NCBI GenBank assembly: GCA_025059995.1
Contig: JANXCF010000001.1
Coordinates: 248,001 to 312,000 of the forward strand
DNA length: 64,000 nucleotides
Reading direction: 5' to 3'
Source: Leptospiraceae bacterium
GTDB lineage: Bacteria; Spirochaetota; Leptospiria; Leptospirales; Leptonemataceae
The notes under the pieces are model-generated. The model made no database searches, was not told the DNA's origin, and saw nothing but the letters and a program-made list of their open reading frames with translations. The translations under genes were made by a program, and so were the position numbers. Numbering within the stretch: position 1 is the first letter of the stretch; every line of letters starts with the position of its first letter. Positions 8,980 to 20,029 of the stretch are shown one piece after another.

Positions 8980-11019
8980 ATGGCAGCAGGACAATTTCCC
9001 AAAAGCCCTAATAAAGTAGACCCTATAATTCCAAGTGCGGTGGCATCACGAACTTCGTTGGTCTGGGAAGGAAGAAATAAGATTGCCGAATCAAAAAAGA
9101 TTGTTGATGATGCAGCAGCAAGAGTGAGGGATTTTGTTCAAACCAAATTGCCACCCGAGATTGCAAAAGATGTCGATATAATGGCAAGCATTGAAGATAA
9201 AATCTACAACTACGTGAACCAAGCATATGTGAATATGTTCAATCGCTACACAATCACCGTAGAAGACGAGATGATGAAGAAGGTTCGTGATTTCGTAGAT
9301 AAAGAAGAAATGCGGGTTTTAGCTCGTTATACCCCGAGAGAAATCTCTGAATTGATCGACAAATTGGCTGGTGCAGACAAATTCAATACCGGCGAGATCG
9401 AGAAATCTATCATCAACATGTATGGACACTTGCAAGGACACATCCAAAGAGGTGTGAACGATTTAGAAAACGAAACCAACGCTATCTTGCGTCAAAAAAC
9501 AGACGTTGGTGCATTCGTTCGTGGTGAGAACGCGTACTCGATAGTCAAATGCGTCTTTAAGGACAATCTTTACAAGCCCAAAACTGTAACAGATATTAAG
9601 CTTTCTATCAACATTCTTGATTCAGAATTGATTAGCCCAATCTTTCATTACCAAACAACCGTAGAATATCTATTGAAGGATACTTTAGCAAAACACATCA
9701 TGGAGTTGATTGATCGAGAGATTGAAAAACTCAAAGAAGAGATCATCGATTCAGGACGACCTGAATTAACCGACGGAGAAATCATGTTCGAAAAAATCAA
9801 GTTGGTCGATAAGTTTACAGATGATAATGCTTCTGATCCTAACTCAAAACGATACGCTATCTTGGCAAAGAAATTCTTAGATAAAATAGAAGGTTTAAGA
9901 GCTGAAATCGACCAAGAAGACTACGATCCTCTCAACATGAGGGAAAGAATCAAAGCCATAATTGATGACGAGAACATCAGAAACCGTGGTTTTAACACAG
10001 CTGTAAACACAATTACTTCTATTCTTGATACCTCAAAATTAGGATATCAAGTTTGTGATAACAAAAAGAATGCAAGAGAGTGTTTAATCAGAGAATACGA
10101 AGATGAGGATGAAACCCAACTACCAGATGAACGTTATTCCATACGATTGGTCTACTATGATCAATCCCAAATACGAGAATTGAAGCGTATCTATGACGCA
10201 AGGATGAATGCTTTTATTCGCGAAGTAGATGCTGTGATGGATGTAGTAGAAGAACTTTATCAAAGAAGCAAAAGGAAATTTGGTGGATTGAAGAAAATCA
10301 TCAAGGATTTCGAAGACTTAGCAGAAGCAGTGATGCCAAAAAAATGGGTTAAAGAACGAAATGCTGTGAATTCAGACCCAGATGAAATCCAATGGAACAA
10401 GCTAAAATATCGTGATCCCGTGAATACCTTTGTGGAAAAGAATAATAGAACATACACTGTTGAAATCAAAAATACTTCTCAAAAACTCAAAGAAATCAGA
10501 CAAAGACTTCATCAAATGTATGGATACCAAAACCCAATTGAGCGAGTTGTGATAGAAGAAAGAGTGAATTTATTAGAACAACAATTCAATAAATTTATTT
10601 ATGAAATCAATCCTCACCATCTTCAACCTGGATTACTTTTGGACATTGATATAAGTACGAACAAACGCAAACAATATATGATGAAAGCAATGGCGAATGT
10701 TCTTAATGAGTTCCTACATAGTGTATCTAAAGGTTTTGCTGATGCGGCATTTGCAACCTTCAAGCGAAGAAGATCAACAGTTCGCGATGATAAAGAAATG
10801 TCTTTTGAAGCTGACTCTGAAAAAGACGCTCAATTAAAGAAATTAGCAAGCCAATACGCAGCTCCAACAAGTAATCAGCAAGAAACCAACACAAATTTTA
10901 CTCCAACATCAAATAATATTGAAAATGGCGAAACCAGTAGTGGTGTGAGAGGTTCTGCTGATGTAACACCCAAATCCTATGAAGATAAACTAAGAGACAT
11001 GGGATTGAAAGAACTTTAA
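8980..11019 (+). CDS. cfpA: Cytoplasmic filament protein A
   Basis: 679 residues, matching the roughly 680-residue length of treponemal CfpA. The N-terminus (MAAGQFPKSPN, then SRTSLVWEGRNKI) and the long, charged, helical body with few prolines are as in that family. CfpA polymerises into the ribbon of cytoplasmic filaments under the inner membrane of spirochaetes and affects cell division and chromosome segregation in Treponema (known from the family). The last 70 residues are low in hydrophobic residues and rich in Asn, Thr and Ser, so probably disordered. The ATG at 8980 has GGAGG nine bases before it; a TTG at 8965 is less likely. A strong hairpin follows the stop. Confidence 0.9.
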   Translation: MAAGQFPKSPNKVDPIIPSAVASRTSLVWEGRNKIAESKKIVDDAAARVRDFVQTKLPPEIAKDVDIMASIEDKIYNYVNQAYVNMFNRYTITVEDEMMKKVRDFVDKEEMRVLARYTPREISELIDKLAGADKFNTGEIEKSIINMYGHLQGHIQRGVNDLENETNAILRQKTDVGAFVRGENAYSIVKCVFKDNLYKPKTVTDIKLSINILDSELISPIFHYQTTVEYLLKDTLAKHIMELIDREIEKLKEEIIDSGRPELTDGEIMFEKIKLVDKFTDDNASDPNSKRYAILAKKFLDKIEGLRAEIDQEDYDPLNMRERIKAIIDDENIRNRGFNTAVNTITSILDTSKLGYQVCDNKKNARECLIREYEDEDETQLPDERYSIRLVYYDQSQIRELKRIYDARMNAFIREVDAVMDVVEELYQRSKRKFGGLKKIIKDFEDLAEAVMPKKWVKERNAVNSDPDEIQWNKLKYRDPVNTFVEKNNRTYTVEIKNTSQKLKEIRQRLHQMYGYQNPIERVVIEERVNLLEQQFNKFIYEINPHHLQPGLLLDIDISTNKRKQYMMKAMANVLNEFLHSVSKGFADAAFATFKRRRSTVRDDKEMSFEADSEKDAQLKKLASQYAAPTSNQQETNTNFTPTSNNIENGETSSGVRGSADVTPKSYEDKLRDMGLKEL

Positions 11020-11022
11020 TAC

Positions 11023-11047
11023 TTGTGGGGGTAGCTTACTCCCACAA
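11023..11047 (+). terminator. Strong hairpin just after cfpA
   Basis: The stem pairs TTGTGGG with CCCACAA and continues inward with GTA/TAC and one G-U pair, leaving a three-base loop (GCT). It begins four bases after the cfpA stop codon. The following bases are only moderately T-rich (TTCAATTTTAT), so it may be a leaky terminator or a 3' stabilising hairpin instead of a full stop. The next gene begins 44 bases later on the same strand. This would allow far more CfpA than downstream product. Confidence 0.65.
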
Positions 11048-11090
11048 CTGTTCAATTTTATAAAAATAATCGAATTTAGGAGAATTATGT

Positions 11091-12041
11091 ATGGTAGGTA
11101 AAATTTTTTTTCCTACTGGCAAGAGAGAGATCTATAATCGTCTATTGAGACATATGGTATTCACAACCACGATTGTTGAAAGGTTTGAAAAAGGTGAAAA
11201 TCTTGCTGATATTATTCAGGAATTACTGGACAGTCATGTAATTACGAATGAACAAGTTCCAGCTATCCTTCAATTATTACTTGTTGAAAGAGCGAAATGG
11301 GCTTTTAGAGTAGAAAACCTACATAAGAATTTTTCAAATTTTACTAACTTAATAAAGATCATAAAGAATTGGAATAATATAGATTTCGTGGTTTCGTATT
11401 ACCATCCAACTTATGGTATTATAGTTATTAATCCCAAAAATAATGAACATTGGGTTAAGGTTCATGAATTAAAAAAAGATGAGCTTTTGATCATATATGC
11501 TAAGCAGAAAAAAGGAAATGTAGAAATTGCAGAAAAAGCCATTAATGAAGTTTTTAATCTAATAGATGATAAACCTTATGAGGATGATCCTAATTTCAAA
11601 ATACCTGAATTGAAAGAGGCAAAACAGGAAATTAAAGTTGAACAAAGAATCGAAGCTCAACAAAAACAACAAGCAACACCAGAAAAAACTCCAATAAAAG
11701 AACCAAAAAAAACTAATATTACATTAAAATATTCGGTGCAAGTGACGAATGAGTTATTTCATAATGGAAACGTTGAAGCTTGGAAAAATATTATTGAGTC
11801 CTATCATGCAAAATATCCTGACTGTAGAGTAATAGTGTATTACGAAGGAGAATTAATTCATGATTTAAATTCATTGTTCAAATGGGGAAAAGTCAAGCAC
11901 GGAAATGTTATTTTTTTTCAAGTTGTTGGAGAAAACATCAGAGGTGTTAGTAGGTTGCAAAAGTATTTATATGAAGGAGCTTCTCCAAGATTCGAGGCAT
12001 TCTTAAAGAAAGATGTGAACAAGATCCTCAATCTGTTTTAA
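11091..12041 (+). CDS. Unknown protein encoded next to cfpA (316 aa)
   Basis: 316 residues with no family I can name. The N-terminal half (about 1-170) is helical then mixed. A Gln/Lys/Pro-rich linker (about 180-215) follows, then a compact C-terminal domain of about 100 residues with strands such as CRVIVYYEGEL and GNVIFFQVV. No signal peptide or membrane segment, so it is cytoplasmic. AGGAG at 11079-11083 precedes the ATG at a good distance. It directly follows the cfpA hairpin and is followed after one base by the next gene. The context suggests a role with the cytoplasmic filament, but this is inference. Confidence 0.75.
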   Translation: MVGKIFFPTGKREIYNRLLRHMVFTTTIVERFEKGENLADIIQELLDSHVITNEQVPAILQLLLVERAKWAFRVENLHKNFSNFTNLIKIIKNWNNIDFVVSYYHPTYGIIVINPKNNEHWVKVHELKKDELLIIYAKQKKGNVEIAEKAINEVFNLIDDKPYEDDPNFKIPELKEAKQEIKVEQRIEAQQKQQATPEKTPIKEPKKTNITLKYSVQVTNELFHNGNVEAWKNIIESYHAKYPDCRVIVYYEGELIHDLNSLFKWGKVKHGNVIFFQVVGENIRGVSRLQKYLYEGASPRFEAFLKKDVNKILNLF

Positions 12042-12042
12042 T

Positions 12043-12756
12043 ATGTTCGAAAAGTATTTCATTCAGCAATCCAATTGGTTGCAAGAATCATTAAATAAAC
12101 GCTTAGAAAAGAAAGGGATTTCTATTCCAGAAAAGAAAGATTTAAGCATCTTTAAAGAGTTTTTTGATTTTATAAAGGAACATATTCCCATCGGATTTTC
12201 TTTAGCGATGGGAAAAATAAGAAATAAAACCCATGTTTATGGAAAAAATGTCGATTTGATTATATACAAAAAATGGACCAAAAGTTTATTGAAATTGAGT
12301 GGTGGATATATATTGGTTGATCATATCTACGCTTTTCTTTCGATAGAGCAAGAGCTCAGTACTGATTCTCTAATTCAACATATTGAAATGACAAATTCAA
12401 TAAAAACCATGTATGCAATGGATTATGAATTGGATGAAAGTAGAATTATTCCCGTATACTCTATTCTATTTGCTTATAAATCTAGGATCCCTCTTTTATC
12501 TCATAAACTCACATTAATTAATGCATCACACGAAAAAGAAATACCTCCAACAAAAGAGGTAGATCTAATATGTGTCTTAGATCAAGGAGTTATAATTAAA
12601 GATTGGGAAATGGGAATTTTTAAGATTATTGAAACAAAAGAAGACACATTGATGTGGTTTTATATTATGCTTATTGAGTATCTTGATCGAGACAATGAAA
12701 TAAAAGTCGATTTAAGAAGGTATATTCGAGAAGTAAAAGAATATGCAGAAAAGTGA
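12043..12756 (+). CDS. Nuclease-fold protein of DUF6602 type, probably inactive
   Basis: 237 residues. The pattern FFDFIKEHIPIGFSLAMGKI, then VDLIIYKK, then YAFLSIEQEL and a helix with an IxxxxSIKTM ending resembles DUF6602-type proteins with a restriction-nuclease-like fold. In active PD-(D/E)xK enzymes the last strand carries ExK; here it reads EQE, so the lysine seems to be lost while the upstream Asp is kept. I infer a non-catalytic, perhaps nucleic-acid-binding or structural, domain. It starts one base after the previous stop and overlaps the GTG of the next gene. The family assignment is tentative. Confidence 0.6.
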   Translation: MFEKYFIQQSNWLQESLNKRLEKKGISIPEKKDLSIFKEFFDFIKEHIPIGFSLAMGKIRNKTHVYGKNVDLIIYKKWTKSLLKLSGGYILVDHIYAFLSIEQELSTDSLIQHIEMTNSIKTMYAMDYELDESRIIPVYSILFAYKSRIPLLSHKLTLINASHEKEIPPTKEVDLICVLDQGVIIKDWEMGIFKIIETKEDTLMWFYIMLIEYLDRDNEIKVDLRRYIREVKEYAEK

Positions 12757-14036
12757 GGCTTATGGTTTCTATAAAAGGAAAGGTTAACGTAGTTCTTCTT
12801 TTATTCACATGGTTTTCTTTGATGATCATTGGATGTAAAAAAGAACCAAAAGAAGTAATTATCCAAAAAAATGAATTTTTCTTCATTATCGATACTTCCG
12901 GTTCGATGGCATACGGACCTTTCCAACACATACAAAAAAAATTCGAAGATTTTTTAACCTTAATAAAGACTGGAGACTCCATTTATATTATCAAATTTGA
13001 CGTAGAACCCATTTTATTGAAAAAAATAGATAACTACGACATAATCAATAAAGATGAGATAATAAACCTAATAAAAGAACTAAAACCCATTGGAAGATAC
13101 ACTGATATACAGCTAATGCTTGATTATACAAAAAATTTGGTAATGAATTCAAAATTAGAGGAGACTTACTTTGATGAAACAAAAAATGAAATCAGAAAAA
13201 TCCAAAAAACACAATTTATCATTGTTTTTTCAGATGGAAAAGATGAACCGCCAAAGAAGAGAAATGTCGTAAATCTCAATGAATATAGAACTAGCCCTAC
13301 TTTACCTATAGAAGATAGATATGTGTATTATGTTAATTTTTCGAGAGAAACTAGCAAGCAAATAGAAGAAGGACTCAAAGAACAATCTAAAGAAGTAAGA
13401 GTAATCCAGAGACCTTTAATGGAAAAGACAACGGATAATGCAAAAACTGAAGATGAAATTTCTTCAAACAATAAGCCTATTGATGATCCTTCGGGAATTG
13501 AAGAATTAAAAGAAAATATCCAACAAAAACAGCAGGAAATCCAAGAGAAATCGGAAAGCTCTTTTTGGCAGAAGTTTCAAATAACTGCTTTTGAAATTTT
13601 TGAAAAAAATAAGAATTTTTTGCTTTTGCTTCTTTTGGTTTCGATTGTTATTTTATCGCTATATTTCTTGTTAAGATATCTTTATAATAGGTTCAAGTCA
13701 GCTTTGAGAGGAGAAATCATTTATTACGAAGTGGGGTCTCATCCTTCTATGGGAAAAACCATAAAACTCAGTAGATTTGAAAAAAATAAGTTAACGATAG
13801 GAAATGATCCTGATTGCTTGATTCGAATCCGTTCAAGGGATTTTCCAACAAAGATAGTTCTAAAACCTATTGAAAAAAATGATCACTATTTTTTCAAAGT
13901 TCCGAAACGCTTTCAAAATGAAATCCAGTTTTTATCAAAAGATTCAAATCAAAATGTTATTTTTTCTGGTGATAAATTCAAAATAAAAAATTATATATTC
14001 GAGTTCAGTTATGGTAGCAAGTCAAAAAACTATTAA
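12753..14036 (+). CDS. von Willebrand factor A lipoprotein with C-terminal membrane segment
   Basis: About 425 residues. A signal peptide ends in the lipobox IIGC (Cys near residue 28), so the N-terminus should be lipidated outside the inner membrane. The vWA domain follows with the metal-site motif DTSGS (near 48-52) and the TDIQ threonine near 113. A coiled, Gln/Glu-rich stretch leads to a hydrophobic segment near 287-307. After it, about 110 residues resemble an FHA or similar beta-sandwich (KLTIGNDPDCLIRI). The start is GTG 12753, overlapping the previous stop, or ATG 12762. It may tie envelope and cytoplasm together; the last 26 bases overlap the next gene. Confidence 0.75.
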   Translation: MRLMVSIKGKVNVVLLLFTWFSLMIIGCKKEPKEVIIQKNEFFFIIDTSGSMAYGPFQHIQKKFEDFLTLIKTGDSIYIIKFDVEPILLKKIDNYDIINKDEIINLIKELKPIGRYTDIQLMLDYTKNLVMNSKLEETYFDETKNEIRKIQKTQFIIVFSDGKDEPPKKRNVVNLNEYRTSPTLPIEDRYVYYVNFSRETSKQIEEGLKEQSKEVRVIQRPLMEKTTDNAKTEDEISSNNKPIDDPSGIEELKENIQQKQQEIQEKSESSFWQKFQITAFEIFEKNKNFLLLLLLVSIVILSLYFLLRYLYNRFKSALRGEIIYYEVGSHPSMGKTIKLSRFEKNKLTIGNDPDCLIRIRSRDFPTKIVLKPIEKNDHYFFKVPKRFQNEIQFLSKDSNQNVIFSGDKFKIKNYIFEFSYGSKSKNY

Positions 14037-16050
14037 AATGAATCCTTTAGAACTAAGAGGAAATGATAGAGTTTTTCAAGTAGATAGAGATACAATTTTG
14101 ATTTATACAGGAATTCATTTAGAGGACTTTCGACCTTTTGCTAGGATTGGTGCGGGAATTGAATTACCATCATCTATCGTAAATCTGATAGAGAATGTTT
14201 TGTTGCCAGAAAGGCATGTATGGAACGTTGGTATGGAGGAAATGTGGCTGAGGAATTCTATAGAAGCTGGGGTTTCTAAGATCATTTATGTAGGTAATAA
14301 AGAAATGCTAAACAATATCAATAAATATTTTGATCTGGAGACATATTTCTCAAATGGAAAGAAAACTGAGAGATTATATCTCCCGGTTGAATATAAAGTT
14401 TATCAGCATTTATCTCAAAAAGAAATAGCTAAAGACAAAGCATCGATTATTTACATGCATACGGGTGATTTTCAAGTTCTTGTTTCTGGAAGTAGAGTTT
14501 TAGACTCTGGAAATTACTTTCGGGCAAGACTCACAATAGACAAAGAATACAGTTTTTTAAAGAGAATTCTTGAGAAATTACCTAAAGAACGAGCGAAAGA
14601 AAAATTTAGCTTTTTTCTATTTCCAGGAGAACAAGTAAGCTGTTTGTTGAATTTTAATGGGATTCTCCTAATGGTAAATCCTCCCATGGAAATGCATTAT
14701 CGATTATTTGAAATGCATATCGACCCCGATAGAGTGAGTATGGCAATCACTTCATCACCATATCAGCCGGGATTTGTTGAAATCTTCAGGAGAGCTGATG
14801 TTCTACAAAAAGAAATAGCTGTTAGCTATCCTGATTTAGAAAAACTTAGTTTATTAAAGAAAATTTATTATTACTCTCGACCTAAATTTTTCACTGATGG
14901 AAGCACGTTACCATTTGCAAGATACGTAAATTATTACGAGTCAAAAACAAAATCGCATTTTGCATTAACATTTCGAACAAGAGATGATGTAGAAGTTCAA
15001 ATGAAATTACTTTTCCCGTTCTTAAAAGAGAAAGAAAATAAAAGTTTTGATTACATAAAAGCTCCATTTGATATTGAATTCCTTAGGGTTAATCATAAAA
15101 AGGATATTTACGATTTACAGACGTCGAATTACTTTATTTTAATACAGGGAGAAATTTCAGATAAAAATTGGGCTAATATCCGACTAAAAGGAAATTTTAT
15201 CCCAGCATTGTTTAATTCGGAATTCCGTTTACATCAGATTGTAGCATTGGATGAGATATTCGACTATATCAACGAAGCATTCAAAGATACTGTTTTTGGT
15301 GAATATATTATTAATCTCGCTACTAAAATTGTAAATTTTAATTCTGTAGATGAATTGATTTCTATTAAAGATGAATTGTATTTGATAAGAACTCAACCTT
15401 TGCCAAATGATACTATCACATTATTCAATTTAGCAGAAACATTAAAATTACTTTATCATGTTGCCAGCTATAATATGGAATTACCAAAAGATGTTGATAA
15501 GCTATTCTTAAATGTAATGAAGAGATTTTCTTTTGAAAAGATTAAAATAAAAGACCTATTATCATTAAAGAGCCCAGTTGATGTAGATTTATTTGTTAAA
15601 GCTGGAGAAATAGTTTCTGTTTACCTAAAAGAATCGAAACCTCTTTGGAATATACATATACAGTATCCACCTGATCCGGGTAATGCAATTGAGCTAGAGA
15701 AAGAATACAGAAAATATCTTAAAGAACAACATAAATTGATTGATAAAGGTTTGGGAACACAAAACGAAAGGCAGTTATTAGAATTTTTGGAGAAGCTGTT
15801 AGAAGAAAGAATTTTTTACAATGAGCAAAGAAATCGATTAGGACAACTCCTAGAAATTATAACTCCAAGCTTGGAAGCATTGACAGAAAGTATGAAGCCT
15901 AAGGGAAAAAAGGTACCATTTCATATGAAACTTCCCTACTGGTTGAGAAAAATTGTTGAAATGCTAAAAATACCAGATCTGATAAATGTAATTGAAATGA
16001 GCATAGAGAAAATCAAAATTAAGAGATTTAAGAGATTAAAGAAGGGATAG
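14011..16050 (+). CDS. Large unknown protein of the cfpA block (679 aa)
   Basis: 679 residues, no signal peptide or membrane segment, and no domain I can name. Early strands such as DTILIYTGIHLEDF and ASIIYMHTGDFQVLVSG alternate with helices; a mostly helical half begins near residue 400. The C-terminus is strongly basic (IEKIKIKRFKRLKKG). It begins inside the vWA gene (26-base overlap), so translation of the two is coupled and joint action is plausible. Its end overlaps a small opposite gene by 15 bases. The conserved function is unknown; a cytoplasmic partner of the membrane-anchored vWA protein is my best guess. Confidence 0.75.
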   Translation: MVASQKTIKMNPLELRGNDRVFQVDRDTILIYTGIHLEDFRPFARIGAGIELPSSIVNLIENVLLPERHVWNVGMEEMWLRNSIEAGVSKIIYVGNKEMLNNINKYFDLETYFSNGKKTERLYLPVEYKVYQHLSQKEIAKDKASIIYMHTGDFQVLVSGSRVLDSGNYFRARLTIDKEYSFLKRILEKLPKERAKEKFSFFLFPGEQVSCLLNFNGILLMVNPPMEMHYRLFEMHIDPDRVSMAITSSPYQPGFVEIFRRADVLQKEIAVSYPDLEKLSLLKKIYYYSRPKFFTDGSTLPFARYVNYYESKTKSHFALTFRTRDDVEVQMKLLFPFLKEKENKSFDYIKAPFDIEFLRVNHKKDIYDLQTSNYFILIQGEISDKNWANIRLKGNFIPALFNSEFRLHQIVALDEIFDYINEAFKDTVFGEYIINLATKIVNFNSVDELISIKDELYLIRTQPLPNDTITLFNLAETLKLLYHVASYNMELPKDVDKLFLNVMKRFSFEKIKIKDLLSLKSPVDVDLFVKAGEIVSVYLKESKPLWNIHIQYPPDPGNAIELEKEYRKYLKEQHKLIDKGLGTQNERQLLEFLEKLLEERIFYNEQRNRLGQLLEIITPSLEALTESMKPKGKKVPFHMKLPYWLRKIVEMLKIPDLINVIEMSIEKIKIKRFKRLKKG

Positions 16051-16329
16051 GATACTATCAATGAATTCTTTATGTTCTTGGAGAATTTTTTTCAGTTCTT
16101 CTTTTTTGCCTGTTCGAATATGACGGCGAATGATTTCTGCTAATCCATTTCGTATCATCGAGTCTAATTCTGATAGGTTATTGAAAGTGATGTCTGTTTT
16201 TCTTTGTTGTTCTTTGCTCTTCTCTATTTTTTCTATGATTTCTTCTACGTTTCTTTTGTTTTTTTGACTGAGGATATAGTTCTTTAGGGTCTCTGGCGTG
16301 AATTCTTCCATATATTTAGCAATCGACAA
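16036..16329 (-). CDS. Small helical protein of unknown function
   Basis: 97 residues from a TTG at 16329, or 91 from ATG 16311. Neither start has a clear ribosome-binding site. The product is almost all charged helix (EEIIEKIEKSKEQQRK, then IIRRHIRTGKKEELKKILQEH) and could form a coiled coil. It lies between two rightward genes of the cfpA block, overlapping the end of one by 15 bases. No family recognised. Being on the other strand, it is the least certain member of this region. Confidence 0.5.
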   Translation of the reverse strand: MSIAKYMEEFTPETLKNYILSQKNKRNVEEIIEKIEKSKEQQRKTDITFNNLSELDSMIRNGLAEIIRRHIRTGKKEELKKILQEHKEFIDSILSLL

Positions 16330-16344
16330 GATAATTCATAATAT

Positions 16345-17406
16345 GTGATTAGCAATAAGAAAATCAATATGGATTGTGAAAAATTACAGAAAACCATTGA
16401 TAAATTATATGAAATCTTAGAAGCTAATCGTTATTTATCATCAACATTGAATCTCACAATCGTTTTAGAAAGATTATTAGAAAAAGCAAAAGAGGTGGTG
16501 GAAGCAGAAGCATCAAGCTTGATGCTGTTGGACGAAGAAAAACAAGAGCTTTATTTCCATACAATTTTAGGAGAGAAGAAAGAAAAATTAAAAGATATAC
16601 GATTAAAGTTAGGAGAAGGGATTTCCGGATGGGCAGCTCAAAACCAAAAATCAGTTTTGGTGGAAGATTGTTCTAAAGATCCAAGATTTTATCGAAAAGC
16701 TGATGAAACGTCAGGATTCGTAACACGTTCTATGATGTGTGTACCATTGATATTTCGTAATAGAGTTTTAGGAACAATTCAAGTTTTAAACAAAACACAG
16801 AATCGCAGCTTTGATTCTGAGGATCTAAGAATCATAGAAATCATGGCATCTCAAGCAGCAATAGCAATAGAAAATGCAAGATTGCATGCTTTGGCAACAA
16901 TTGATAATGCCACCGGTCTTTATCGAAAGGAATATTTTTTAATGAGACTTAAAGATGAATACAGAAGATTTCTTCATAGCAATGTGCCATTATCTGTCCT
17001 AATGAGTGACATCGATTATTTTAAAAGGATCAATACTGAGTATGGGCATATTGGGGGAGATATAGCCTTAAAAGAATTAGCTAATGTAATATTGAATGTT
17101 ATACACGAATCTAAAGAGGATTATGTTGCTGGTAGATATGGTGGTGAAGAATTCTGCGTGATAGTCCCCAATTCCACTGAGGATAAAGCAATGGAGTTGG
17201 CTGAAACAATAAGAAAGAAAATATATGATCACGAATTTTACATAAATGATAAAAAAGCAAGAATCACTATTTCCATTGGAATTTCGAGTTTACCAAAACA
17301 TATGGATTATATTCAAAGTCATGAAGATTTGATCAAATTGGCTGATGAGGCATTATATATTTGTAAGGATCGAGGAAGAAACTGTTGTGCAATATTTGAA
17401 AAATGA
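16345..17406 (+). CDS. GAF-GGDEF diguanylate cyclase
   Basis: About 350 residues. A GAF sensor domain covers about residues 25-180 (EAEASSLMLLDEEKQEL, GEGISGWAAQ, SMMCVPL). A GGDEF domain follows, with the active-site signature GGEEF (near 266-270) and upstream ATGLYRK-type start (NATGLYRKEYF). The intact signature predicts c-di-GMP synthesis. No inhibitory RxxD is evident just before the signature (the sequence reads DYVAGRYGGEEF). No membrane segment, so it is a cytoplasmic sensor. The start is GTG 16345 or ATG 16369. It lies upstream of the dikinase-like gene on the same strand (16-base gap). Confidence 0.88.
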   Translation: MISNKKINMDCEKLQKTIDKLYEILEANRYLSSTLNLTIVLERLLEKAKEVVEAEASSLMLLDEEKQELYFHTILGEKKEKLKDIRLKLGEGISGWAAQNQKSVLVEDCSKDPRFYRKADETSGFVTRSMMCVPLIFRNRVLGTIQVLNKTQNRSFDSEDLRIIEIMASQAAIAIENARLHALATIDNATGLYRKEYFLMRLKDEYRRFLHSNVPLSVLMSDIDYFKRINTEYGHIGGDIALKELANVILNVIHESKEDYVAGRYGGEEFCVIVPNSTEDKAMELAETIRKKIYDHEFYINDKKARITISIGISSLPKHMDYIQSHEDLIKLADEALYICKDRGRNCCAIFEK

Positions 17407-17422
17407 CTTATAGGAGTTGATT

Positions 17423-20029
17423 ATGAACCAAATTTATGTATTTGAAGGAAAAGGTGAAGTTTATGATCAAAATATATATGAACGTGTAGGCAAAAGAGGT
17501 AGAAGAATGTTAGAATTAACGGAGATGAAGATCCCAGTAGTGCCAGGCTTTATAATTGATAACGAATATACTCCCAAACTTTTAACTGAGGATTTTATCC
17601 CACTTTTGCGAAGGGGATTAATTTTTATTGAAGATGGTGTTGGAAGAAAATTTGGTGATGCAAATAATCCTTTGCTATTAAAAGTTGTAGTAAGTTCAAA
17701 TTTTAGTTTGCCTTTTTATCCTACTGTTTTCAATGTGGGATTGTCCCCGCAAACCATAAAAGGTTTCGCTAATTTAATTGGAGAGAGATCTGCATGGTTT
17801 GAATATGGATATTTGATACGCACTATTGGAACGAAAATCTTTGATATTGAACAGAGAAAATTTGATGAGATATTATCAAAATATGATGATACAGCGGAAG
17901 GAGTAAAACAAGCTGCTTTTGAAATGTTGGAACTCGTAGGGAAAGAAAATGTTCCTGATGATCCCTATCAGCAACTACAATTAGTAATAAAAAATTTAGC
18001 AAAACGATATTACGATCCAGAATTGGATAGGGAAGATCCACCTGCCATGCTTGTGCAAGGAATGGTTTTTGGTAATTTGGGAGAAGACTCAGCTGTAGGA
18101 AATTACTATACTCGTGACATCATTACGGGAGAAGATGTTTTAAGGGGAGAATTCCTTCTCAATCGTTATACTTTGGATAGAGAAGGAGAAGACATAAACA
18201 AACTTGATGAAAAATACTTAGTTGAATTAAAGAGAATAGGAAAATCAATCGAAAGAAAGTTTCGCGAAATTCGAGAAGTTAAATTCATCATCGAAAAGAA
18301 AAAGTTATGGATCATAAACCAAACGGAAGTCGATAAAAAATCAACGCAAGCCCATTTGAGAACTCTTCTGGATTTATTAAAGGAAGGAGTCATAACAGAA
18401 GAATGGCTCGTAGAACAAATCCCTCCTGGTCAGTTGGCGACCTTGCTTCATGCAGTCGTAGATGAAAAATCATTAAAAGAAATTCCATCTATTAAAGGTG
18501 GTTTGACGGGAGCTCCCGGAGCTGCCGTTGGAAGAGTTTACTTCAACTCTGATAGATTAATGGAGGCTCACAGAGAAGCTATTTTGAAGGGAGAGGATAC
18601 TCGATTGATTCTTTGTGTTCCTGCCTCCTTTGCAGAAGATGTAAAGGCAATAGAAGTAGGAGTGGGAGTTCTCTCTTCTGAAGGTGGATATTCTTCTCAT
18701 GCACCTGTTGTGGCACGTTCATTGGGTAAAGTAAGTATCGTTCATCCCGAAATTAAAATAGGAGAAAATTTCTTTGAATACAATGGTCATCGTATTAATG
18801 AAGGAGATTACATTACCTTAGATGCTCCGGTTTACCGAGAACCAACGATTTATTTAGGAAAAGCGAACCTTATCACGCCTGATATCCATAAAAATGGTTT
18901 AGTGGAATTCATTCAAGTTATAAAGAAATTTATTACAGAAGATTTTGTTGTTAGGGCAAATGCAGACTTAGCTCGGGATGCCAAAGTAGCAAAAATGATG
19001 GGAGCTTACGGAATTGGTTTGTGTCGAACAGAACACATGTTCTTCGAGGAACAAAGAATTAATAAATTCAGGGAAATGATATTATCGAAAGATTATAACG
19101 AACGTGTAGAAGCTCTAAAAGAACTAAAACCTCTGCAAAAAAATGATTTCTATGAATTATTCAAAATCATGGCACCTTATCCAGTAACTATACGACTTTT
19201 GGATGCGCCATTACATGAATTTCTTCCAAGAAATGAAGATGCTTTTCGTGATTACATACAATATTTACAACAAAAGGGATTAAAACCTAATGAAAAAGAA
19301 ATCAAAGAAAGAATCGATCGTTTGCATGAATTTAACCCCATGTTGGGTCATAGGGGATGTAGGGTAGCAATTACTTATCCAGAAATCTATGAAATGCAAG
19401 TAAGGGCAATTTTCGAAGCCGCAACTCAACTAAAAAAAGAAGGAATAGAAGTAGAACCAGAAATCATGATCCCCATCGTGATGAATAGTAGTGAGTTGAA
19501 GTTTATCAAAAATGGGAAATTGATAGAAGGAAAATACATAAAGGGGATTCGAGACATTGCAGAAGAAGTATTCAAACAAGAAGGTGTTCGAGTCAAATAC
19601 AAAGTGGGAACAATGGTCGAGCTACCTGCCGCAGCTTTGCAATCTCATGAATTAGCTCAGTATGCAGAGTTTTTTAGCTACGGAACAAATGACTTAACTC
19701 AGACAACTTATGGCTTAAGTAGGGATGATATTAATTCCTTCTTCCCTGCATATACAATGTATGATTTACTTCCTGGAAATCCGTTCCAAGTTTTAGGCGA
19801 ACCTGTGAAAGAACTCATTTTACTCTCTGCCGAGAGAGGAAAACTTACAAGACCAAATATAAAACTAGGTCTTTGTGGTGAGCATGGAGCTGATCCTTCA
19901 AATATCCCTTTCTGTATGGATGAAGCTAAGTTAGATTATGTTTCAGTTTCTCCTTATGGTATCCCTATAGCGTTGTTAGCGGTAGCCCAACACAATATTA
20001 AGAAGGCAAAAGAAAAAGCAAAAAAATAA
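17423..20029 (+). CDS. Pyruvate phosphate dikinase-like protein with altered ATP-grasp half
   Basis: 868 residues, the length of pyruvate phosphate dikinase (PPDK). The swivelling and PEP halves look intact: GGYSSHAPVVAR with the phospho-histidine (near residue 425), GLCRTEHMFF, GHRGCRV, FFSYGTNDLTQ and GLCGEHGADPS with the catalytic cysteine (near 816). The N-terminal ATP-grasp half has lost key features: the usual GGKGAN reads VGKRGRR, SVRSGA reads VVVSSNF, and the QTR motif reads QTE. ATP may therefore not bind in the normal way. TAGGAG precedes the ATG at 17423. PPDK genes near cfpA are also known, as I recall, in Treponema pallidum. Confidence 0.8.
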   Translation: MNQIYVFEGKGEVYDQNIYERVGKRGRRMLELTEMKIPVVPGFIIDNEYTPKLLTEDFIPLLRRGLIFIEDGVGRKFGDANNPLLLKVVVSSNFSLPFYPTVFNVGLSPQTIKGFANLIGERSAWFEYGYLIRTIGTKIFDIEQRKFDEILSKYDDTAEGVKQAAFEMLELVGKENVPDDPYQQLQLVIKNLAKRYYDPELDREDPPAMLVQGMVFGNLGEDSAVGNYYTRDIITGEDVLRGEFLLNRYTLDREGEDINKLDEKYLVELKRIGKSIERKFREIREVKFIIEKKKLWIINQTEVDKKSTQAHLRTLLDLLKEGVITEEWLVEQIPPGQLATLLHAVVDEKSLKEIPSIKGGLTGAPGAAVGRVYFNSDRLMEAHREAILKGEDTRLILCVPASFAEDVKAIEVGVGVLSSEGGYSSHAPVVARSLGKVSIVHPEIKIGENFFEYNGHRINEGDYITLDAPVYREPTIYLGKANLITPDIHKNGLVEFIQVIKKFITEDFVVRANADLARDAKVAKMMGAYGIGLCRTEHMFFEEQRINKFREMILSKDYNERVEALKELKPLQKNDFYELFKIMAPYPVTIRLLDAPLHEFLPRNEDAFRDYIQYLQQKGLKPNEKEIKERIDRLHEFNPMLGHRGCRVAITYPEIYEMQVRAIFEAATQLKKEGIEVEPEIMIPIVMNSSELKFIKNGKLIEGKYIKGIRDIAEEVFKQEGVRVKYKVGTMVELPAAALQSHELAQYAEFFSYGTNDLTQTTYGLSRDDINSFFPAYTMYDLLPGNPFQVLGEPVKELILLSAERGKLTRPNIKLGLCGEHGADPSNIPFCMDEAKLDYVSVSPYGIPIALLAVAQHNIKKAKEKAKK

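Follow-up and report, generated by a model that had tools for sequence, protein, structure and literature searches.

The window, which is the whole 64-kb stretch of Leptospiraceae DNA that was analysed, contains a block of genes that opens with cfpA, the gene of the spirochaete cytoplasmic filament protein, and ends with a gene derived from pyruvate phosphate dikinase (PPDK) (Table 1). The reading frames that a preliminary description, made from the letters of the DNA, had listed for this block are all present at their positions, and the identity of CfpA proposed there is confirmed by the NF040882 score, which lies above the curated cut-off.

Table 1. Genes of the cfpA block, with positions counted from the first nucleotide of the window.
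Gene	Position	Strand	Product and features
cfpA	8980..11019	+	679 aa cytoplasmic filament protein; NF040882 867.9 bits, cut-off 500
g2	11091..12041	+	316 aa, TP0747-type; two predicted domains, the C-terminal one HPr-like
g3	12043..12756	+	237 aa, DUF6602-related, cytoplasmic
g4	12753..14036	+	lipoprotein-type signal, periplasmic vWA, one TM, FHA-like cytosolic domain; TP0750 family
g5	14011..16050	+	679 aa; predicted tandem metallo-beta-lactamase folds without HxHxDH
small convergent gene	16036..16329	-	97 aa; conserved, between g5 and dgc
dgc	16345..17406	+	GAF-GGDEF diguanylate cyclase (Pfam); GGEEF intact
PPDK-like gene	17417..20029	+	870 aa, PPDK-derived; ATP-grasp half degenerate, phospho-His and PEP site intact

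The first five genes are closely packed, with 71 nt between cfpA and g2, 1 nt between g2 and g3, an overlap of 4 nt between g3 and g4, and an overlap of 26 nt between g4 and g5. The gap between g5 and dgc is 294 nt and the one between dgc and the PPDK-like gene is 10 nt. Among the loci of f1, the window's family, that span this region, most carry a homologue of the small reverse-strand gene between g5 and dgc, so the tight unit is cfpA-g2-g3-g4-g5, and dgc and the PPDK-like gene probably form a second unit with a separate transcript. The single transcript that had been proposed for the genes after cfpA agrees with their close packing and probably does not extend to the two genes behind the convergent one. 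Promoter and terminator scans of the locus gave no signal above shuffled sequences, and a search of the window for RNA families and tRNAs found none. Outside the window's genus, many members of f1 (L034, L038-L042, L044, L045, and L048) carry a large gene, of about 830 residues, immediately upstream of cfpA and in the same orientation.

The distribution of these genes was followed by phylogenetic profiles over 296 genomes of the phylum Spirochaetota, of which 109 have cfpA. Given as genomes with both genes, cfpA only, the partner only, and neither, the counts are 104/5/2/185 for g2, 102/7/3/184 for the PPDK-like gene, 84/25/4/183 for g5, and 59/50/2/185 for the cytosolic domain of g4, and the genomes that have only the partner are mostly incomplete assemblies. 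The profiled genomes share ancestry and are not independent, so that Fisher P values overstate the significance of these counts and are not to be read literally.

Gene order was compared in the cfpA regions of 20 genomes of f1 and in 34 loci from 22 other families, and the sample further included 80 named loci; the nearest named relatives of the window are the Leptospiraceae MAGs KatS3mg129 and SKW199. The order in f1 is cfpA-g2-g3-g4-g5-dgc-PPDK, families f23, f31, f35, f39, f41, f46, and others have g3-g4-cfpA-g2-PPDK, families f9, f27, f30, f42, f48, and f54 have g5-cfpA-g2-PPDK, and f33 has cfpA-g2-PPDK-g5. The Treponema-type families f22, f34, f43, and f52 have a divergent vWA gene (g4), often accompanied by the gene of pallilysin, and then cfpA-g2-PPDK. 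The positions of g3, g4, and g5 around cfpA vary, and cfpA, g2, and the PPDK-like gene are contiguous in 20 of the 22 other families, which makes the PPDK-like gene a core partner of cfpA and not a mere follower of the block, as it had been described. Families f12 and f32 still retain g2 and the PPDK-like gene, at other places in the genome. In f12, f23, f31, and others g5 is unlinked from cfpA, yet it is restricted to genomes that bear cfpA, so the association exceeds the inertia of gene order.

The recurrence of the block beside cfpA throughout the phylum is far beyond chance, and the association of its genes with cfpA is strongly supported. The earlier proposal of a filament-linked system depended on linkage across genera. 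Nearly all families show it for g2 and the PPDK-like gene, three gene orders include it for g4, and g3 and g5 show it in subsets. That these genes form a functional module of the CfpA filament is held with high confidence. Two genomes depart from the common pattern in other ways. In one of them, which is complete (G212, loci L207 and L208), about 160 kb separate cfpA from g2, the pallilysin gene, and a PPDK-like gene of reduced length, so that the module appears to be split. In the other, G013 (locus L209), no cfpA was detected, and a g4-type protein that has the cytosolic domain is encoded next to a protein of 630 residues.

The diguanylate cyclase gene does not share this distribution. Its GGEEF motif, at residue 266, is intact and it adjoins cfpA in nearly all complete f1 loci, which is what a c-di-GMP-controlled module for adhesion or anchoring would show in this family. 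As a rule, though, cfpA lacks a diguanylate cyclase neighbour in the other 22 families, and the conserved convergent gene separates dgc from the putative anchor genes in f1, so such a module is highly improbable. c-di-GMP, which had been counted as part of the filament system, was rejected as its core on the same grounds.

The protein encoded by the last gene, previously taken for a PEP-synthase-like protein, is a paralogue of the PPDK family, which matches TIGR01828 with 699.5 bits, below the cut-off of 843.45. Its residues were compared with those of the solved PPDK 1DIK and of 12 canonical PPDKs from the Spirochaetota. Each of the 44 full-length copies that are linked to cfpA lacks all four ATP-grasp residues (K22, R92, E323, and R337), and the copy of the window has R27, V91, and K289 at ATP-grasp positions and no Arg at the position of R337. 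R92, E323, and R337 presumably act in the ATP chemistry of PPDK, and their roles are reportedly treated in the work of Ye et al. of 2001. The phosphorylated histidine (His455 equivalent) and the tested residues of the PEP/pyruvate domain are retained in all 44 copies, and the window copy keeps His428 (codon 18698-18700), R537, R593, E735, N758, D759, and C820. In several cases the lost residue has been replaced by a new one that is itself invariant (K27R, S89K, and Q286R), which suggests re-use with a new ligand or partner and not decay. From this pattern of residues, the PPDK-like protein would no longer be able to use ATP and would keep the half that carries phosphate from PEP to histidine. 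In the related rifampin phosphotransferase the mutation of Lys22 abolished activity and Glu297Ala was tolerated (PMC4844700), so not every residue lost in the PPDK-like protein need be decisive. Of its closest known counterparts, which are PPDK (1DIK) and PPDK-derived kinases such as VadK and rifampin phosphotransferase, the PPDK-like protein shares the domain order and the PEP-site residues of PPDK. VadK, which has lost the pyruvate domain and kept its ATP part (PMC13400623), is degenerate in the opposite half, whereas the ATP-grasp residues are the ones lost here.

The copies linked to cfpA form one clade (support 0.87), and most cfpA-positive genomes have a second, canonical PPDK. Pyruvate kinase is present in 11 of 12 genomes tested, and the exception is the T. 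pallidum-type genome G056 (locus L056), which is the Nichols strain of T. pallidum or a very close one. In T. pallidum, TP0746-TP0748 and TP0750 are the same gene set as the block of the window, and TP0746, which is treated as the glycolytic PPDK of this organism (PMC10013896, PMC8525777), is among its highly expressed genes, with cfpA in the same table and not in the very top group (PMC8525777). G056 has neither pyruvate kinase nor a canonical PPDK, and its sole PPDK-like gene, whose reading frame contains nt 810772, the published position of a single-nucleotide variant of TP0746 (PMC10013896), has a degenerate ATP-grasp half. TP0746, judged by its residues, would be unable to make ATP. Both PEPCK and OadA are encoded in G056, and they are a possible route from PEP to pyruvate in T. 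pallidum. The published role of TP0746 and the place of the protein in the TIGR01828 family speak for an ordinary PPDK, whose gene, like g2 and the others, would merely be conserved next to cfpA. This is very improbable, because the four ATP-grasp residues are lost in every copy, a canonical PPDK exists beside it in most cfpA-positive genomes, the partners stay with cfpA after the linkage is broken, and PEPCK and OadA could bypass the step in T. pallidum.

The product of g2 has no convincing match by sequence in Pfam, NCBIfam, or the PDB, and none of 23 g2 members matched the HPr model PF00381. An HPr-like domain was proposed from the pattern of conserved residues, ahead of structure prediction. 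The AF2 model of g2, which has a mean pLDDT of 86.5, is formed by two domains with the topology beta-alpha-beta-beta-alpha-beta-alpha, and in it His224 (codon 11760-11762) immediately precedes the helix 225-241, which is the position of His15 in HPr. A NELFHNG motif with an invariant His is found in 108 of 109 g2 copies. The 50 top Foldseek matches of g2 in the PDB are mostly HPr proteins, with probabilities up to 0.99, target TM-scores up to 0.73, and weak E-values (0.07-0.4), and hhalign gives 53% for the C-terminal domain against spirochaete HPr, where the maximum of a null set of 52 unrelated slices is 1.5%. The C-terminal domain is thus predicted to be HPr-like in fold and topology. The N-terminal domain, which was considered as a second HPr by sequence, received no support from hhalign. 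The equivalent of HPr Arg17 is absent from g2 (HNGNVEAW in alignments A2 and A7, against HTRPAA in HPr), so His224 may not be phosphorylated.

The two proteins resemble enzyme I and HPr of the PTS, since the PPDK-like protein keeps the residues for the transfer from PEP to histidine and g2 has a predicted HPr-like fold with a His before helix 1. They differ from that system in that g2 lacks Arg17, the module is linked to a cytoskeletal filament, and 11 of the 12 genomes tested encode a genuine HPr as a separate protein, and the HPr-binding subdomain of enzyme I is not among the features seen in the PPDK-like protein. A search of the open-access literature, which did not cover subscription papers, found no paper on TP0747 or on a link between cfpA and PPDK.

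The g4 protein matches the Pfam VWA model with 35.9 bits and its MIDAS residues D47, S49, S51, T117, and D161 (DxSxS, T, D) are invariant in alignment A3. It has a lipobox (Cys28 when the GTG start is residue 1) and a single TM in its interior, at about residues 289-307, in agreement with the lipidated vWA protein with a membrane segment that had been described. The TM is followed by a cytosolic domain of about 110 aa, whose matches to FHA-type domains are weak (E 0.0015-1.7). A search with TP0750 retrieves g4 proteins, the best of which are longer Spirochaetales forms with the TM, and by this sequence comparison TP0750 is a truncated g4 relative without the TM and the cytosolic domain. Pallilysin (TP0751), which is paired with TP0750 and is a frequent neighbour of cfpA, is widespread in cfpA-negative genomes, and in seven cfpA-negative loci it has no g4 alongside, so the vWA protein tracks cfpA and pallilysin does not. 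Pallilysin was rejected as a member of the module for this reason. In the Spirochaetales loci L063, L066, L069, L072, and L081, a gene for a DHH/DHHA1 phosphoesterase of about 330 residues lies between the pallilysin gene and the vWA gene or cfpA.

Published work on fibrinolysis and the extracellular matrix (Mol Microbiol 2014, as cited in PMC7521688) would favour a vWA protein that is a host-directed adhesin or protease, as reported for TP0750, and that is near cfpA by accident. The family is, however, present in environmental genomes, including those nearest to the window, its members mostly have the TM and the cytosolic domain, it is absent beside pallilysin in the seven cfpA-negative loci, and TP0750 itself has been described as periplasmic (PMC7521688). 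An accidental neighbourhood of this kind is highly improbable.

The AF2 model of g5, until now a 679-residue protein of unknown kind, has a pLDDT of 88.3 and a pTM of 0.84 and is formed by two metallo-beta-lactamase folds, with ELAC2 as the best Foldseek match (E 2.2e-7, probability 1.00). The HxHxDH metal motif is found in none of 48 g5 proteins, and g5 is predicted to be a dead double metallo-beta-lactamase fold. It shares the tandem arrangement with the long-form RNase Z (ELAC2) and differs from it by the missing metal motif and by the TM and LysM that most g5 relatives carry. A TM segment is present in 35 of 54 g5 copies, and most relatives add it together with a periplasmic LysM-like end that is below the Pfam cut-off by single sequence and visible only by profile search. 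The g5 of the window has no TM or LysM, and no remnant of them follows it in the three forward frames; because it ends before the TM, g4 is the only membrane-spanning member in the window's genus. The nuclease fold that had been assigned to g3 relies on a match to DUF6602 (PF20247) of 26.9 bits, just under the Pfam cut-off of 27, and over 66 copies of g3 the nuclease motif E-x-K is not kept, and D71 and K121 are invariant.

A mechanism can be outlined in which PEP would phosphorylate the histidine of the PPDK-like protein, as it does with PTS enzyme I, and the phosphate, or a PEP-dependent state, would be handed to g2, which would bind CfpA and set the assembly or the bridging of the ribbon by the level of PEP. 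Such PEP-dependent regulation of the filament through g2 is a tentative proposal, to which we give somewhat less than an even chance. In the same module, g2 and the PPDK-like protein could be pure pseudo-enzyme scaffolds, which would bridge the ribbon or bind a ligand within it and would transfer no phosphate. The loss of catalytic motifs in several parts of the module (ATP-grasp, HxHxDH, and E-x-K) and the absence of the Arg17 equivalent from g2 agree with scaffolds, whereas the phosphorylated histidine and the tested PEP-domain residues, present in every PPDK-like copy, would be needless for them, and the histidine of g2 is invariant. Scaffolding is possible and somewhat doubtful, and it has nearly equal weight to the PEP relay.

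Together, g4 and g5 would tie the ribbon to the inner membrane and the wall, g4 with its periplasmic vWA, TM, and cytosolic FHA-like domain, and g5 with its cytosolic pair of dead metallo-beta-lactamase folds, which the TM and the peptidoglycan-binding LysM usually follow. The role of g4 and g5 as anchors is slightly favoured, and both could be among the "novel bridging and anchoring components" that a tomography study of the filaments by Izard, of 2004, has in its title, as cited in PMC3398590. Treponema-type genomes have neither g5 nor the cytosolic domain of g4, so these anchors cannot be universal. The anchoring and control module of the preliminary description thus keeps its link to the filament and two genes with an architecture for anchoring to membrane or wall, and loses its c-di-GMP part. 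The identities of the genes, their co-occurrence, the lost residues, and the predicted folds are results of the analysis, and from them we infer the binding of g2, g4, and g5 to CfpA, the phosphotransfer, and the direction of control. The overall reading, in which the CfpA filament has an accessory module, specific to spirochaetes, with a PEP relay and g4/g5 anchors, has about an even chance of being correct. Its most complete form is more doubtful, although possible: a PTS-like phosphorelay of its own would control an intermediate-filament-like cytoskeleton, vWA-FHA and dead metallo-beta-lactamase-LysM anchors would tie it to the membrane and peptidoglycan, and TP0746 would be a regulator in T. 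pallidum and not its glycolytic PPDK.

The CfpA filament of Treponema (You 1996; Izard 1999-2008) is made of the same protein family (NF040882), and a cfpA mutant of T. denticola shows chromosome condensation and filamentation (PMC3398590). The accessible literature identifies no genes for partners or anchors of this filament, and the partner set described here is new; with it, candidate genes are put forward for the structures that bridge and anchor the cytoplasmic filament of spirochaetes. A bacterial cytoskeletal filament would be linked to central metabolism by a re-used pair of PPDK-like and HPr-like proteins, which could report the feeding state of the cell. TP0750, which has been studied as a host-directed protein, would be recast as a member of a filament-linked family that is common to environmental relatives. 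If TP0746 has no ATP chemistry, this bears on how the syphilis agent converts PEP to pyruvate.
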